From: Desulfocapsa sp.
Lineage (GTDB): Bacteria > Desulfobacterota > Desulfobulbia > Desulfobulbales > Desulfocapsaceae
Reading direction: 5' to 3'
Assembly (NCBI GenBank): GCA_013792135.1
Contig: VMSP01000051.1
Coordinates: 1 to 57,343, forward strand
Length of the DNA: 57,343 bases
Below, one piece after another: positions 25,496-32,500 of the stretch. The notes beneath the pieces were generated by a model that saw only the letters and a list, made by a program, of their open reading frames with translations, made no database searches and was not told the origin of the DNA. Position 1 is the first letter of the stretch. Every line of letters begins with the position of its first letter. Both the position numbers and the translations under genes were made by a program.

Positions 25496-26485
25496 TTGGC
25501 TTTATATAGATGTTTTGTGGTGCGAGAGCAGAGTAAAGGTGAATTCGTCGGATCGGTTGAAGAGAAGGACACAGAGGAACTGCCACCAAGTGAACTCCTG
25601 ATCAGGGTCCATTATTCGTCGCTGAACTATAAGGATGCCCTCTCTGCCACGGGAAATCGTGGTGTCACAAGACGGTATCCTCATACCCCGGGGATTGATG
25701 CGGCCGGTGTGGTGGAGGAGTCCACTGTTGCCTCTTTCCATCCGGGAGATCAGGTTGTCGTCTCAGGATATGATCTGGGTATGAATCATCCTGGCGGCTT
25801 TGCAGAATATGTGCGGGTTCCTGCAGCATGGGCAGTGAGGCTTCCTGCAGGTCTGACGCTTAAACAGAGTATGATGCTGGGGACGGCCGGCTTTACGGCT
25901 GGTCGTTGTGTAGAGATGCTTGTGCGGCAGGGTTGTGTCCCTGGGGAAGGTGATATTCTTGTGACCGGAGCTACCGGTGGTGTTGGGTCGACCAGCGTGG
26001 CTATGCTTGCCAAGCTGGGTTTTGCAGTGACAGCCCTCACCGGAAAAATTGAGCCTGCGTTTCTTCTGGGGCTGGGAGCTCGTGAGGTCTTGGCCAGGGG
26101 AGAATTTGTTCGGTCTCGTAAAAAAATGCTCCTGCCGGAAAGATGGGCAGGGGTGGTGGATACCGTCGGTGGCGAATATCTTGAGACTGCTATCAAAGAG
26201 ACTCGTTATGATGGGGTTGTTACCAGTTGCGGCAATGCGGCCTCTGGTGACCTGGCTCTTACAGTCTATCCCTTTATTATCCGTGGAGTACGGTTGATTG
26301 GCATTGATTCCGCCAGGTGTTCCCTGGCCGTCCGAGAGCGAATCTGGCAGTTGTTAGCAATAGAGTATAGATTCAGTCAGCTTGATCATCTGGCGTCTGT
26401 GATTACCTTGGAACAACTTGATGGGGCGATCCAGCGTATGCTTGCTGGGAGTTTACGGGGACGGGTGGTTGTACAGTTGATATGA
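25496..26485 (+). CDS. acuI: YhdH/AcuI-type quinone-oxidoreductase-family NADPH dehydrogenase (acrylyl-CoA reductase-like)
   Basis: The 329-residue medium-chain dehydrogenase has YKDALSATGNRGVTRRYPHTPGID (about 42-65, the YhdH/AcuI signature). The nucleotide-binding TGATGGVGSTSVAML lies at about 158-172, and FIIRGVRLIGIDS (about 261-273) follows. The zinc ligands of alcohol dehydrogenases are missing, as in this subfamily. AcuI reduces acrylyl-CoA to propionyl-CoA. Family members also act on other enoyl substrates, so the substrate is inferred. Translation seems to start at TTG 25496. Its stop overlaps the kdsD start as ATGA. Confidence 0.8.
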   Translation: MALYRCFVVREQSKGEFVGSVEEKDTEELPPSELLIRVHYSSLNYKDALSATGNRGVTRRYPHTPGIDAAGVVEESTVASFHPGDQVVVSGYDLGMNHPGGFAEYVRVPAAWAVRLPAGLTLKQSMMLGTAGFTAGRCVEMLVRQGCVPGEGDILVTGATGGVGSTSVAMLAKLGFAVTALTGKIEPAFLLGLGAREVLARGEFVRSRKKMLLPERWAGVVDTVGGEYLETAIKETRYDGVVTSCGNAASGDLALTVYPFIIRGVRLIGIDSARCSLAVRERIWQLLAIEYRFSQLDHLASVITLEQLDGAIQRMLAGSLRGRVVVQLI

Positions 26486-27498
26486 GTCTTTATCACAAAA
26501 TGTTTGGAGTGGAGAAAAACGAGGTAATGTCGATACAGGAAGCACAGAAGGTTTTTTTAATCGAAGAACAAGGCCTTGCCGCTGTCCGCGAGCGGATTGG
26601 CGAGGAGTTTGAAAAGGCGGTTGATATGCTTTTTCATTGTCCCAGTCGTGTGGTTATTACTGGAATTGGGAAGTCTGGAATCATTGGACAGAAAATTGCT
26701 GCAACCCTGAACAGCACAGGTACGCCGTCGTTTTTTCTTCACCCGGTAGAGGCCATGCACGGTGACCTGGGTATGGTTATGCCCACTGACGTGGTGATTG
26801 CCATATCGTATTCTGGTGGAACCACTGAGTTGAATGGGCTCATGGGTAGTCTACAAAAGAGAGGGGTGGCGATTATTGCCATGACTGGCGGTCTGCATTC
26901 AATCCTTGCCGAGGCAGCGGATTTGATCCTTGATATCGGGGTGCCGATGGAGGCCTGTCCGTTGGGACTTGCCCCCACTGCCTCGACCACGGCAACCCTT
27001 GCCATGGGAGATGCCCTTGCTGTTGTGCTGTTGCAGAAGAAGCATTTTCTGGCTTCAGATTTTCGCAAGAATCATCCAGGCGGAAGCTTGGGAGAACGTT
27101 TGAAGGTGAGTGTGTGTGAGGTGATGCTTACGGGTGATGCCGTTCCCTGGGTGAATGGTGAAGCACCGGCTGCCAAGGCTATAGAGGTGCTGAATGAAAA
27201 GAATATCGGAGCGGTCTTGATCATGGGAGCAGGCGAGAAAATTCTGGGTATTGTCACTGATGGTGATGTACGCCGCAGCATCGTTGAGAATAAGGTACTT
27301 GCCTCTTTGCACGCGGTAGACATTATGACGCCAGATCCGGTGGCTATTGATGGTTCGATGCTTGCGGCCGATGCATTGAGTATCATGCAGAGGCATGAGA
27401 TTACAGTCTTGCCGATTGTGAAAAAGGGTGGAGGCCTTGCAGGGATTCTTCATCTTCATGACCTGTTGGGCAAGGGTGAATTTCGTTTTCTGGTCTGA
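26482..27498 (+). CDS. kdsD: Arabinose-5-phosphate isomerase (KdsD/KpsF)
   Basis: The 338-residue protein has a SIS domain (about 45-190) with GIGKSGIIGQK, SYSGGTTEL and HPGGSLG. A C-terminal pair of CBS domains follows (about 210-335). It converts ribulose-5-phosphate to arabinose-5-phosphate, the first step towards Kdo for lipopolysaccharide, in keeping with a Gram-negative envelope. The ATG at 26482 overlaps the previous stop by four bases. An internal ATG at 26527 preceded by GAGG is an alternative start, closer to typical family length (about 320-330). Confidence 0.93.
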   Translation: MSLYHKMFGVEKNEVMSIQEAQKVFLIEEQGLAAVRERIGEEFEKAVDMLFHCPSRVVITGIGKSGIIGQKIAATLNSTGTPSFFLHPVEAMHGDLGMVMPTDVVIAISYSGGTTELNGLMGSLQKRGVAIIAMTGGLHSILAEAADLILDIGVPMEACPLGLAPTASTTATLAMGDALAVVLLQKKHFLASDFRKNHPGGSLGERLKVSVCEVMLTGDAVPWVNGEAPAAKAIEVLNEKNIGAVLIMGAGEKILGIVTDGDVRRSIVENKVLASLHAVDIMTPDPVAIDGSMLAADALSIMQRHEITVLPIVKKGGGLAGILHLHDLLGKGEFRFLV

Positions 27499-27749: not shown

Positions 27750-27904
27750 CAAGACTTCATGTGCTTATAATTAAATAAACAGGTTTGTTGTTGCTTCCGG
27801 GATCATAGGAACTGTACGGAAATAAAAGTAAAATTACTTTCTGTATTGTGTTTTGTTTTATGTTTGTAACAGAGATGAGAGAATTTACAACAGGGGAGAG
27901 TAAA

Positions 27905-28147
27905 ATGGAACAGATGGAAAAATTAAGGGTCTTGTTGCCGCATTGGATTGAACATAACCGGGGGCATGCTGAAGAATGCGGGAAATGGTCTGCTTTTGCC
28001 CATGACGCGGGAGAAGAGACAGTGGCTACTTATATCGAGAGCGCCATTGCGGCCATGAATCAGGCAAGTGAGTTTCTCGATAAGGCCTTGCTGGCGGCTG
28101 GCGGCAAGATGCCGGAGCATGAACACCATCATCACCACCATCATTAA
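27905..28147 (+). CDS. Small helical protein with natural C-terminal heptahistidine tail
   Basis: The ATG at 27905 (GGGGAGAG upstream) gives an 80-residue protein. Residues 1-65 look all-helical, with WIEHNRGHAEECGKWS (His, Glu and Cys that could bind metal) and a second helix AAMNQASEFLDKAL. The protein ends MPEHEHHHHHHH, coded by mixed CAT and CAC codons, so the tail is natural and not a cloning tag. It follows the CooT-like gene by 155 bp. Nickel or zinc binding or storage is inferred. I do not recognise a named family with certainty. Confidence 0.75.
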   Translation: MEQMEKLRVLLPHWIEHNRGHAEECGKWSAFAHDAGEETVATYIESAIAAMNQASEFLDKALLAAGGKMPEHEHHHHHHH

Positions 28148-28188: not shown

Positions 28189-30906
28189 TTATTTGTGATA
28201 TGGTTCCCATTGATTCTTTTTCGGATCATAGAGATAGTTGACTTTCAGGAGCGTTGAGTCGTCGGATTCTTGCTCGAAGCACTGGAGCATAAATAACATT
28301 TTTCCACCTATTCTCTTAAGAAAGCTTGCTTGCGGTTTGGATAAGTTTTCAGGGAGCAGGGTAGGGGTGTCCTGGATGAAAAGGGCCTGAAAATTGTCGG
28401 TCAGATACAATATCTGTTCTGATATCAAACGATCTTCCTGGGCCTGATAGGCTGAGGAGAGTATTTTCTGGCCTGCAGTTATGGCGTTCTGCTCATTGGC
28501 GGAGTTTTCATTACTGAAAAAACGCCATTGTCTGGTGGCTGGGTCGTAGAGATAACTTGTCTGCAGGAGCACCGGCCGACTATTTCCCTGCTCAGAACAC
28601 TGGATTCTGTAGAGCATTTTGCGGCCTATTTTCTTAAGAAATGTGACGTGAGGATTTGATAAATTTTCAGCGTTCAAGGCTGGGTTGTTCTGGGTAAAAA
28701 GCTTTTGATAGTTGTCTGTCAGATATGAGATATGTTGGCTCTTCAGCAGATCTTCCTGCGCCTGAATGATAGAGAGTTTTGTCTCTTTGATAATTGTCTG
28801 GAACTCCTCTTCGCTGGCGAATGAGCTCATGTCTGTTGTTTCAATGATCGTCTGCAGTTTGTCGATTGCTGGGGAGAATTCATGGTTTTTCAAGTGGTTG
28901 GCAACGCTCTGCTGGTCTCTGATAATGGCGGCATGAAGCATGAGTCTTGAAATTTTCTGCTGGCTTTGCAGGGGATTGTCGCGACGCAGGAGTTCGCTAT
29001 TTTCTTCAAGGAGTTGAATAGCCTTTTCGTATGAACTGATAGCTTGATCCCATTGGGCATCGGTAAAAGCTTTTTTTCCCTGTTCCAAGGAGTTGAATAC
29101 CTTGCTGCGGACGATTATTTCCTGGAGGGAGGCGACTGTCTCGGCATCAGAAAAAGAGAACTTTTGTTCTATCTCGTGGGCTTGTTCGAAAGCAGTAAGG
29201 GCATTCGCCCAGTCTCCTTTAGAAAAATATTCATCGCCTGAGGCCATTAATTTGTTAAATTCGACCTGGCCGTTGAGCGATTGAATCCTTGAGATGTTGG
29301 CAGTTGGAATCTGTGGGTTTTTCCTGGCAAGATCCAGGGCTTTATCAAAGTATTTTTTTGCAGAATCTCCTTCTGTCCGAGCCAAAGCCTGCTCACCTGC
29401 CTGCAATGCAATGTTGAATTCGGAGGTTGTTATGTTTCTACGAATCTGGTCAAGGAGACTTTGATCGACCTTTGGTATTGCGGAAGCAAACTGCAATGCG
29501 TGCGTATACCCCGTCAGAGCAGCTTGCCAATTGGTATCAGCAAGCTGCTGATCAGCAAGCTTCATAGCTTGCTGCCATTCCGGTATGCTGTCTTCTTTGC
29601 TGAGTGCAGGGCCTTTGTTCTGGTTAATGGAGTCCTGAGCTTGTTTAATCTCTTCAGTGAGAAGTTTTTTCTCATCTTGCTTGATGAAAATAACTTTTGA
29701 GGTCAGCTCCAAGGCGTCGGTACATTTTTGTTCAGCCTCAGTAATTTTGCTTGCTTCCTGAAGCTCTTGACACTCTTTGAATATTGTTTGGGCATGTTCT
29801 AATTGAGTGCTCAAAAACAAGTAGCTAAAGCTCAAGATGAGCAGAAAACCCATACCGCCACAGCCAACGATGACTGGCCAGCGGGAACTGCTCTGTTTTC
29901 TTATTGATTGAACCGAAGAGCTTTTTTGGGGAGTGGGAGTAACCGGATTTTCATCGCGTTTTGAGGCAGTTTTTTTCTTGTCATTACCGGTATTCTTTTC
30001 AGTAACTTCTTCTACTGCCCAGTCGCCAAGCATCTCCAGAGAATATTGTGCCCGATTGATATCTTTATCTATCTCATAAAAATCCGGGACTAAATTCTTT
30101 ACTGCTTTATATCGCTGTAAGGCCTTTGCCGGATTTCCCTGGTGTTCAAAGGCCTCTCCTTCCTGGTGTTTTTGATGTGCTTCATTGAGATTTCGCTGCA
30201 TCTGGCTATCCAAATCGGCATTGGGCACTTGATGTTCCGTGGTATCGGAAGAGGGCTCCAGGGAAAGGTGCGGATGCGGAGATTTTTCTGCTGCGATTTC
30301 AGAAGAGGAATTTTCTCTTTGTTCGAATACTTCAACGTCGTCAACTTCTGCTATCTCATTGCTTGGAAAAAGGATATCATCAACAATATCCATTTCCAGC
30401 GCCCTTTCAGCGGGGGCTGTTTGCTCCTCTTGGACTAATAATGGGCTTGACGAGAGTTGATGGATGGTATCCAAGGGTAGTCTGTTTTTATTCTCCTGGT
30501 ACCAGATTGCCGCGTTTTCATTGAAAGCATTATTGGTTGAGTAGATCTCGCCGCAAAGCATGTGGCCAATATGGATGATCAGCTCAGAAAGAGATTGGTT
30601 GTTTTCCCAAAAATCCCCTATGCATATGGCCGCCTGATCAAAGTCAGGGTGGAAAACTGGAGTATCTGGTTTACAGTTTGGTGGGAAATGGGGGAATCCA
30701 AAAGGAAGGGTGAGAATGACGACATGGTCCGTACATTCTCGGACCTCGCCATTATCTTCTTTGCAAAGACCTTGTAGATGATAGGTTATACGATATTGTT
30801 CAGGAGGAGTTCCGGCAATGGGTGTTACTCGAATCTGTTGATGTTGGGAAAATCTGACATTGATTTCCTGAAAAATGGCTTCCAACTGTTCAGAAAGGAT
30901 GGTCAT
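28189..30906 (-). CDS. Membrane protein with N-terminal E2 (UBC)-like domain, TPR-like repeats and duplicated C-terminal module
   Basis: The 905-residue protein opens with a UBC/E2-like fold (about 1-140). LPFGFPHFPP (68-77) corresponds to the E2 LPxxYPFxPP strand. FHPDFD (85-90) corresponds to the HPN motif with D for N, and AICIGDFW (93-100) places Cys95 where the catalytic cysteine lies. Helical SELIIHIGHMLCGEIYSTNN follows like the E2 C-terminal helices. An acidic linker, a TPR-like pair (about 235-295) and one transmembrane segment (about 343-367) come next. A long TPR/helical part is probably extracytoplasmic. Two similar 72-residue modules end the protein (728-799 and 834-905), each with YLTDN at the start and YLYDP near the end. 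No E1, JAB peptidase or ubiquitin-like gene is adjacent. The E2 call rests on motif order and is not proven activity. Confidence 0.7.
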   Translation of the reverse strand: MTILSEQLEAIFQEINVRFSQHQQIRVTPIAGTPPEQYRITYHLQGLCKEDNGEVRECTDHVVILTLPFGFPHFPPNCKPDTPVFHPDFDQAAICIGDFWENNQSLSELIIHIGHMLCGEIYSTNNAFNENAAIWYQENKNRLPLDTIHQLSSSPLLVQEEQTAPAERALEMDIVDDILFPSNEIAEVDDVEVFEQRENSSSEIAAEKSPHPHLSLEPSSDTTEHQVPNADLDSQMQRNLNEAHQKHQEGEAFEHQGNPAKALQRYKAVKNLVPDFYEIDKDINRAQYSLEMLGDWAVEEVTEKNTGNDKKKTASKRDENPVTPTPQKSSSVQSIRKQSSSRWPVIVGCGGMGFLLILSFSYLFLSTQLEHAQTIFKECQELQEASKITEAEQKCTDALELTSKVIFIKQDEKKLLTEEIKQAQDSINQNKGPALSKEDSIPEWQQAMKLADQQLADTNWQAALTGYTHALQFASAIPKVDQSLLDQIRRNITTSEFNIALQAGEQALARTEGDSAKKYFDKALDLARKNPQIPTANISRIQSLNGQVEFNKLMASGDEYFSKGDWANALTAFEQAHEIEQKFSFSDAETVASLQEIIVRSKVFNSLEQGKKAFTDAQWDQAISSYEKAIQLLEENSELLRRDNPLQSQQKISRLMLHAAIIRDQQSVANHLKNHEFSPAIDKLQTIIETTDMSSFASEEEFQTIIKETKLSIIQAQEDLLKSQHISYLTDNYQKLFTQNNPALNAENLSNPHVTFLKKIGRKMLYRIQCSEQGNSRPVLLQTSYLYDPATRQWRFFSNENSANEQNAITAGQKILSSAYQAQEDRLISEQILYLTDNFQALFIQDTPTLLPENLSKPQASFLKRIGGKMLFMLQCFEQESDDSTLLKVNYLYDPKKNQWEPYHK

Positions 30907-31411: not shown

Positions 31412-31423
31412 TTGACGCAGAGT

Positions 31424-32500
31424 ATGAAATCTTTTCAGGTCATTTTTAAAATTATTGAAGGCAACCACTGTCCATTATATAAGGTTGGCGAGAAGTTGAT
31501 TTTGTCGGACAAGGCACTTTCCTGTCCGGGGAATAAGGCAACCTGTTTGATTTTGGTACGGGAAATGACCCAGTTGTTGTTCAAACTCCTTGCGGCAAAG
31601 GATGATCATCTGGTGGCTGAAAAATCGATATTCAGCTGCAGTGGTTGTACTGGTCTTATTAAATTTATTCCGGTCTCAATTCCTGAGAATCTGGCGCCAG
31701 GAACTGCTCCTGTCCTGAGGGCCAGGGAACAAGAACTTCTTGCGAAGATTCAGTCGTTTCCCTTGATCCAGATAATTCCTGATGATGAATTAAAGAATTT
31801 TATTGGACGGTGTCAACTGGAGCTTATTCGTGAAGGGACTCTTCTGATCCATAAAGGGGAACTAAATTCCTCTCTTTACCTTATCATCTCAGGGCAAGTG
31901 CTTGTGATTGATGGACCTGTTGTGATCACGACTTTGGGGGCTGGTGAGATTTGTGGAGAGATGAGTTATCTGGGAGGGGATGTGGCTGGGGCCTCGGTCC
32001 GGGCCTTGTGCGATACAGAGGTGCTTGCTGTTTCCAGTGATGATTTCAATCTTCTTCTTGATAAGCTGCCTGCTGTTCAGATTTTTATGGCCCGCTTATT
32101 GGCGCAGCGGCTGACTCGGGTGAACAGGGCCAGGGCTGAAGATTTTGCCTCATGTATGCAGGGTAAATTGCAGGATATGGCCCCCGCAGAACTGTTTCAG
32201 ATTTTTCATATGAACAGTAAAACAGGAGTTCTTGCCCTGAATCTTCCTCGCGGGCCGGGAAAGATTTCGTTCCGGGAAGGGTGTATCATTAATGCCCATT
32301 ATCAGGGACAAGAGAATGAAGAGGCAATCTTCGCCATGCTGGCTGAACATGAAGGAACTTATAGGTTTACCCTTGGGCTTTCTCCACAAGAGATGAAGGC
32401 GGCAGAAGTTGGTGATTTTATGAAACTTCTTATGGAAGGAGTTAAGCGGGTGGATGACGCGCAGGAGGGAAGACAGGAGAGAGCTGCAAAAAATTTCTAG
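31424..32500 (+). CDS. Cyclic-nucleotide-binding-like domain plus DUF4388 (PATAN) protein
   Basis: From the ATG at 31424 the protein has 358 residues. The first 95 residues form a cysteine-containing domain (CPLYKVGEKL, SCPG, then CSGC), similar in layout to small TIGR04076-like proteins. A CNB beta-roll follows (about 115-235) with ISGQVLVIDGP and CGEMSYLGGDVAGASVRA. The arginine that normally grips the cyclic phosphate is replaced (GAS instead of RAS), so it may not bind cAMP. The C-terminal part (about 250-345, DMAPAELFQIFHMNSKTGVL...) matches DUF4388/PATAN signalling domains. The frame also opens at TTG 31412. The gene resembles the C-terminal half of 24031-25335 in its CNB part and is probably a signalling protein. 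Confidence 0.7.
   Translation: MKSFQVIFKIIEGNHCPLYKVGEKLILSDKALSCPGNKATCLILVREMTQLLFKLLAAKDDHLVAEKSIFSCSGCTGLIKFIPVSIPENLAPGTAPVLRAREQELLAKIQSFPLIQIIPDDELKNFIGRCQLELIREGTLLIHKGELNSSLYLIISGQVLVIDGPVVITTLGAGEICGEMSYLGGDVAGASVRALCDTEVLAVSSDDFNLLLDKLPAVQIFMARLLAQRLTRVNRARAEDFASCMQGKLQDMAPAELFQIFHMNSKTGVLALNLPRGPGKISFREGCIINAHYQGQENEEAIFAMLAEHEGTYRFTLGLSPQEMKAAEVGDFMKLLMEGVKRVDDAQEGRQERAAKNF

Follow-up and report, generated by a model that had tools for sequence, protein, structure and literature searches.

A gene that is widely inherited within one bacterial order encodes a protein in which a ubiquitin-conjugating enzyme fold (UBC, or E2 fold) precedes a transmembrane segment and tetratricopeptide repeats (TPR), and the residue at the place of the E2 catalytic cysteine, Cys95, has been exchanged in related lineages that keep the rest of the protein. 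In this study the gene was analysed in a stretch of 57,343 nucleotides from Desulfocapsa sp. (contig VMSP01000051.1; here referred to as the window), and its product is referred to as the scaffold protein. Because related lineages carry other residues at the would-be catalytic place, the domain most likely offers a docking surface and is not an enzyme; it is considered fairly probable that it acts as a docking module on the cytoplasmic side of a TPR scaffold in the inner membrane, and a DUF4388 protein encoded beside it is the candidate partner. The open reading frame occurs once in the genome (a 4.2 Mb draft) and is present in relatives, and is therefore taken as a real gene with the following parts:

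28189..30906, minus strand: whole gene, ATG to stop, 905 amino acids (aa), in the order UBC, linker/TPR, transmembrane helix, TPR, C-terminal modules
30463..30906, minus strand: UBC (E2-fold) domain, residues 1-148 (profile, Pfam, AlphaFold2 model, structure comparison)
30643..30651, minus strand: His86-Pro87-Asp88, the HPD that replaces the HPN of classical E2s (alignment)
30622..30624, minus strand: Cys95 codon at the place of the E2 catalytic cysteine; Cys, Arg, Lys, or Ala by lineage (alignments)
29875..30462, minus strand: acidic linker and TPR-like stretch, residues 149-344, predicted to be cytoplasmic (TPR_14 at 250-279 below cut-off; topology by charge)
29809..29874, minus strand: transmembrane helix, about residues 345-366 (hydropathy)
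28762..29808, minus strand: TPR region, residues 367-715, predicted to be periplasmic (Pfam; core alignment A3)
28525..28761, minus strand: C-terminal module copy 1, residues 716-794 (a helix and four strands in the model)
28207..28443, minus strand: C-terminal module copy 2, residues 822-900 (found in the window's genus only)

The UBC fold and the exchange of Cys95

The fold of the N-terminal domain is that of UBC/E2, as had been proposed in a preliminary description of the window. The Pfam model UQ_con matches the window protein alone at an E-value of 4.5e-4, which is under its curated cut-off, and matches all 24 aligned relatives, at best with 2.9e-9, while a profile built from these 24 sequences picks out human UBE2C among PDB entries at 9.1e-7. 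An AlphaFold2 model of residues 1-153 reached a pLDDT of 92.2 and a pTM of 0.89; the 50 rows that Foldseek listed for it are all E2s or E2-containing complexes (best E-value 4.6e-6), and VIA-align matched it to UBE2S with a Z of 13.8 over 128 residues at 2.5 A. The His86-Pro87-Asp88 motif and the candidate catalytic Cys95 of the preliminary description were verified as well, with Ile94 directly before Cys95 and Trp100 after it.

Position 95 was read in 51 distinct main-copy sequences of the window's family (coded f1) and, from two other families of the same order (coded f2 and f3), in 25 of the 51 f2 genomes with a hit and in 14 of 14 f3 genomes. Identical UBC rows were collapsed; G104, duplicated both among the 98 rows of the alignment and among the 97 rows of the tree set, was counted once; a partial row (L023) stood in the alignment and was absent from the tree set; and the f1 set excludes two paralogues (G036 with Arg; G039 with Pro and HPE) as well as the separate operon E2 of G048. 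Residue 95 is Cys in 49 of the 51 f1 main copies, with Tyr in G080 and His in G047; it is Arg in 23 and Ala in two of the f2 genomes read; and it is Cys in seven, Lys in six, and Arg in one of the f3 genomes. A UBC fold without the cysteine is found in the f2 genomes read and in half of f3, but not in the window protein. Cys95, on whose conservation the preliminary description had made its proposal depend together with the fold, is conserved in some lineages only, and the family-wide conservation expected of an E2 enzyme is absent. At least six changes between Cys and other residues were counted on the UBC tree, a quick tree of few columns in which 42 of 94 inner branches are open. The lineages without Cys95 retain the remaining site motif and the whole domain architecture. 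The HPN motif expected of an E2 enzyme is likewise missing. Every f1 main-copy row and every f3 row has HPD instead, as do 23 of the 26 f2 rows; the remaining three f2 rows, from two genomes, have HPA.

Two short UBC-TPR paralogues of about 530 aa (L043 8384-9970 and L045 7825-9423; genera g7 and g8) have Arg or Pro as residue 95, and their cores cluster with f2 in the core tree. One f2 genome holds a broken UBC remnant that contains stops (G510:C102:2688-3100).

The fusion to a transmembrane segment and TPR, also part of the preliminary description, is upheld by one hydrophobic segment near 345-366 in the 905-aa protein and by two TPR models over the Pfam cut-off (TPR_2 with 33.6 bits against 27). 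The flank on the N side of the hydrophobic segment is the more positive one in 77 of 90 homologues, with equal charge in three and the reverse in ten; by the positive-inside rule, which is used for membrane topology, this would make the UBC domain cytoplasmic and the C-terminal half periplasmic. The C-terminal duplication described earlier is real (44 of 79 residues identical between 716-794 and 822-900), whereas the length of the repeated unit is closer to 79 residues than to 72 and the unit, among the homologues examined, is doubled in the window's genus only. No known fold was assigned to this module: the best Foldseek E-value is 0.06, and the best VIA match, with a Z of 7.1, is a de novo cystatin design, followed by VirB8-like and NTF2-like folds at about 6. 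In three loci of the same genus (L003, L004, and L008) the frame stops after the first C-terminal module, and further stops were counted in two or three of these genomes. A G-x-V-x-x-x-G-x-Y-like stretch that is present in most cores (columns 101-114 of core alignment A3) is absent from the window protein.

E1-linked relatives and the search for partner genes

Homologues of activating enzymes (E1) and of JAB proteins were searched for with three E1s, the three ThiF-domain proteins of this genome, and two JABs as queries, at an E-value of 1e-3. The search covered 47 UBC loci (812 kb), two of which hold the short paralogues, and the seeds' own loci were recovered as positive controls. Neither an E1 nor a JAB homologue was found in the 47 loci or in the window, ubiquitin-like (Ubl) genes not having been searched for; the adjacent E1 and JAB genes that an E1-E2-RING-JAB or a Bil operon requires are thus absent from all of them. 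The window's genome contains four ThiF matches, comprising three full genes and one fragment, all on contigs other than the window's. One of these genes is a ThiF over its NCBIfam cut-off and one is nearest to TcdA, under the cut-off. The MoeB/ThiF-like gene adjoins a frame that, judged by eye, may be the C-terminus of MoeA. ThiF-domain proteins occur in 111 of 113 genomes of the order, and their numbers per genome overlap between the Cys-bearing f1 and the Arg-bearing f2. For Prok-JAB, one subthreshold match was found in the window's genome.

Four other UBC relatives were found, all of which have HPN, and three of them, namely the three with the cysteine, adjoin E1 genes, two of these also JAB genes. 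In G423 (L121 7451-14217), ThiF (E-value 1.3e-54), JAB (7.1e-13), Prok-RING_1 (1.4e-8), a Cys-bearing UBC protein, and DnaJ form one run on one strand, i.e., an E1-E2-RING-JAB-like operon, whose UBC matches the scaffold profile at 1.5e-31. The f1 genome G048 has a row of ThiF, Cys-bearing UBC, and JAB (L123 3425-5997) separate from its scaffold gene, and in G473 a Cys-bearing UBC that was found by the UBC profile (3.6e-6) and missed by Pfam lies beside a ThiF-domain protein. The fourth, a UBC-TPR protein of G116, has Asp where the cysteine would be, and no E1 was recognised in the stretch listed around its gene.

In E2 enzymes a basic helix 1 serves E1 binding. Over the 47 Cys forms of f1, which individually span -4 to +1, the charge of helix 1 averages -1.7; over 26 f2 rows it averages -2.8, and in f3 it is -1.0 in the Cys forms and -3.1 in the others. 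It is +2 in G423 and +4 in G048, in both of which the UBC gene is located with E1 genes; the value of -2 for L071 (G473) is poorly captured and was set aside.

Genomic neighbourhood and the core without UBC

One gene on each side of the UBC gene marks its neighbourhood:

31412..32500, plus strand: cNMP-binding and DUF4388 protein, conserved divergent neighbour and candidate partner (Pfam, synteny)
26482..27498, plus strand: KpsF/GutQ-family (KdsD-like) isomerase, the usual 3'-side gene in f1 and f2 and a synteny marker (family model over cut-off, KdsD equivalog under)

The preliminary description had stated that no partner gene is near, which holds as far as E1 and JAB are concerned (no search was aimed at Ubl genes) and overlooked the conserved divergent DUF4388 gene. 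Of the 43 UBC loci whose upstream DNA extends for 1 kb or more, 35 (f1 19/24, f2 10/13, f3 6/6) have a divergently oriented homologue of the DUF4388 protein seen in the window, at a distance of about 0.1-1.2 kb from where the UBC gene starts; such a divergent homologue is found in none of nine UBC-less loci and at neither of the two short paralogues. Its identity rests on Pfam in five neighbours and on BLAST to the window's protein in the rest, over a fragment only in L115. Of the five that were scanned, the window's protein and one from f3 combine DUF4388, also called PATAN, with a cNMP-binding domain, whereas in three f2/f3 cases the two are not fused. The adjacency of the two genes is an association and not a proof, and the DUF4388 protein is put forward as the likeliest partner.

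Scaffold homologues were found in 84 of 93 genomes and 18 of 18 genera of the window's family. Order-wide, 132 of 197 genomes have one (67 in f1, 51 in f2, and 14 in f3), and the order's remaining families gave zero matches among these 197 genomes. In a sample of the phylum, the UBC profile matched 13 of 395 genomes, namely ten members of the order plus G116, G423, and G473; among 296 phylum genomes, Pfam UQ_con matched eight, namely G116 and seven order members, and it matched none of 14 control genomes.

In f1 the genes follow the order dsrA, dsrB, birA-like, ahcY, metK, kdsD-like, UBC gene, DUF4388, HAD phosphatase, YkgJ-like (by eye), and secDF; of 27 stretches, many of which end early, 18 hold dsrB, 21 the kdsD-like gene, and 22 secDF. 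Much of this order is kept in f2 without ahcY and metK (dsrB in six and secDF in seven of 14 stretches), and in f3 mainly the DUF4388 neighbour is retained, a kdsD-like gene being found within 2.5 kb in none of the five f3 loci that have enough downstream DNA, where the DUF4388 gene is present. A defence island was rejected, as the genes annotated around it are of the housekeeping kind (dsrAB, ahcY, metK, kdsD-like, and secDF) in an order conserved in f1, and the UBC scaffold gene is read here as an inherited core gene and neither a mobile nor a defence locus. PADLOC gave only a weak TPR match to the whole window protein and no Bil or E1-E2 model; this is a poor test, because it was equally silent, as regards Bil and E1-E2 models, on the three E1-adjacent UBC proteins. 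A frame at 27848-28147, flanked by the kdsD-like and UBC genes, encodes a 99-aa protein with a His-rich tail, which has homologues in a few relatives and no Pfam or NCBIfam match.

A search with the C-terminal module, followed by one with the core from the transmembrane segment to the end (A3), also retrieved homologues without UBC: open frames of 706-734 aa in seven genomes of three other families, coded f112, f113, and f114, and paralogues of near 600 aa in f3. Eleven such loci were read, with no UBC match at an E-value of 0.01. The core is alignable between members with and without UBC, and in a carefully built tree of 27 cores, of which 16 have UBC and 11 lack it, one branch with a support of 100/99 separates the two forms, which, the tree being unrooted, means one gain or one loss of the UBC domain. 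The core profile matched 16 of 385 phylum genomes: ten order members along the whole core and six others within a portion of the TPR region (1e-11 to 5e-16), the latter being read here as TPR similarity. The UBC-less core genes adjoin dsrJOP-like genes in five of the seven f112-f114 genomes (G559, G562, G563, G565, and G566; L178, L179, L191, L193, and L195); none were found in G560 and G564 within the stretches examined, and in both UBC-less loci that were scanned the DsrO model matched just under its cut-off. The UBC gene of the window itself lies about 8 kb from dsrAB. No functional link to Dsr is claimed, since many other genes occupy the same place.

Docking module or enzyme

The scaffold protein was not classed as an E2 enzyme, because family-wide Cys95 and HPN are both wanting. 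As no E1 and JAB genes adjoin it, it was likewise not assigned to any known Ubl operon. With eukaryotic E2s such as UBE2C, UBE2S, and UBE2K it shares the fold, the profile match, the position of the f1 cysteine, and the Trp that follows; it differs from them in HPD, a mostly acidic helix 1, the fusion to a membrane TPR protein, the exchange of the cysteine in sister lineages, and the lack of a nearby E1. UEV domains (TSG101, MMS2) and RWD domains are inactive E2 folds. With these the scaffold UBC shares an E2 fold that can do without the cysteine and a proposed role as a binder, whereas it has no adjacent E1 or JAB, has lost the cysteine in some lineages only, and is fused to a membrane scaffold. 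The E2 fold is also found in the bacterial Cap2 of CBASS, as an E1-E2 fusion in type II, in contrast to which the scaffold protein shows UBC and TPR and no ThiF by Pfam. In the accessible text of the sources, bacterial E2-like domains are described as components of Ubl operons (PMC1779556, PMC7159879, PMC11354881), including operons that combine E1, E2, JAB, and RING genes as well as RWD-like inactive E2s (both PMC1779556). The UBC of G423 sits in such a run and matches the scaffold profile, whereas the window gene and 47 relative loci are without a nearby E1 or JAB homologue. Bil (BilB: PMC11354881) likewise has a bacterial E2 fold, and the scaffold differs in lacking adjacent E1 and JAB genes and in lying outside a defence island. 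Also close are the UBC-less TPR proteins of the same order, which have the whole core from the transmembrane segment to the end in common with the scaffold and fall in one tree with it, but lack both the UBC domain and the DUF4388 neighbour.

The best reading, by analogy with these inactive folds, is that the scaffold UBC works like an inactive E2-type binder. The UBC domain would have a common origin with the E2s of bacterial E1/RING/JAB operons, from among which it was perhaps recruited. The protein would be a bitopic inner-membrane scaffold, with its C-terminal TPRs and module(s) in the periplasm and its TPR linker and UBC domain in the cytoplasm, and the latter would dock a protein or peptide and carry no ubiquitin-like protein on Cys95. 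Together with the DUF4388 protein it may relay a cytoplasmic signal to an envelope assembly, in the window's genus possibly a cyclic-nucleotide-linked one. The preliminary description had offered two options, a new membrane-anchored E2-like system or a non-catalytic UBC scaffold. The latter fits better, because the cysteine is exchanged for Arg, Lys, or Ala with the architecture kept, HPD replaces HPN, and E1 and JAB are absent near the 47 loci; the former is not supported, though possible in the Cys95 lineages.

Several points weigh against a docking role. Cys95 is near-invariant in f1 although full-length identity beyond the genus is only about 27-42%, and this conservation exceeds what is expected for a useless residue. 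Columns 97, 130, and 89 change along with the loss of Cys, as those of an active site might, which shared ancestry of the sequences could explain too. The contrast in helix-1 charge is a soft argument, because the f1 Cys forms spread widely and G116, without Cys and without an adjacent E1, also has +2. The MoeB/ThiF-like protein of the window's genome (L158) falls under every NCBIfam cut-off and so is without an assigned role, Prok-JAB is over its cut-off somewhere in 12 of 61 family genomes, and the assembly is a draft of 186 contigs (estimated to be 99.99% complete). The binding partner, moreover, is a candidate only; the DUF4388 adjacency could be inherited synteny, as the loci are related and eight of the 43 are without it.

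Among the rival explanations, the one with the most in its favour, albeit unlikely, is that the Cys95 lineages have an active E2, charged with a small beta-grasp protein by a general MoeB/ThiF-type E1-like enzyme and steered by its membrane anchor to envelope or membrane-proximal proteins, the Arg/Lys lineages being inactive. The cysteine at the E2 position in nearly all of f1 and half of f3, its flanking Ile94 and Trp100, the E1 genes beside all three other Cys-bearing relatives (with JAB in two), and the near-ubiquity of ThiF-domain proteins, one of them without an assigned role in the window's genome, would all fit; but HPD and the mostly acidic helix 1 also occur in the Cys forms, neither E1 nor JAB homologues were found around the 47 loci, ThiF counts do not set Cys-bearing f1 apart from Arg-bearing f2, and the architecture is unchanged after loss of the cysteine. 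A more specific proposal has a slimmer chance still: a working housekeeping E2, charged by MoeB/ThiF with a sulfur-carrier-like protein, would modify inner-membrane proteins outside operons, and the Arg/Lys forms would be its switched-off, docking-only descendants.

It is improbable that Cys95 serves a chemistry apart from Ubl transfer, such as redox sensing, metal or cofactor binding, or lipidation, with Arg or Lys as a fixed state elsewhere. A second cysteine, Cys78, occurs in all f1 main-copy rows and all 14 f3 rows but in none of the 26 f2 rows, and dsrAB, for sulfite reduction, is close by; yet Cys78 persists where residue 95 is Lys or Arg (seven of 14 f3 rows), Tyr, or His, which rules out an obligate Cys78-Cys95 pair. 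Least probable is a ligandless passive fold for the stability or oligomerisation of the TPR scaffold. The core does exist without UBC in f112-f114, but the UBC domain is the best-conserved part of the protein, which makes a passive role unlikely: outside the genus, where the pieces of main copies were aligned apart, the N-terminal piece has about 41-57% identity and the longer remainder about 23-35%, and 18 columns are invariant among the 24 aligned UBC relatives.

A literature search yielded no paper recognisable as being on the scaffold protein, subscription journals lying largely outside its reach, and the scaffold is apparently an unstudied envelope protein of sulfate reducers. The E2 fold occurs here as an inherited domain on a membrane scaffold, and one order offers a natural series that runs from Cys to Lys, Arg, or Ala and includes relatives without UBC. 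With this series it can be tested directly how catalysis is lost as an E2 turns into a binder, a step that has been assumed for the eukaryotic UEV and RWD domains.

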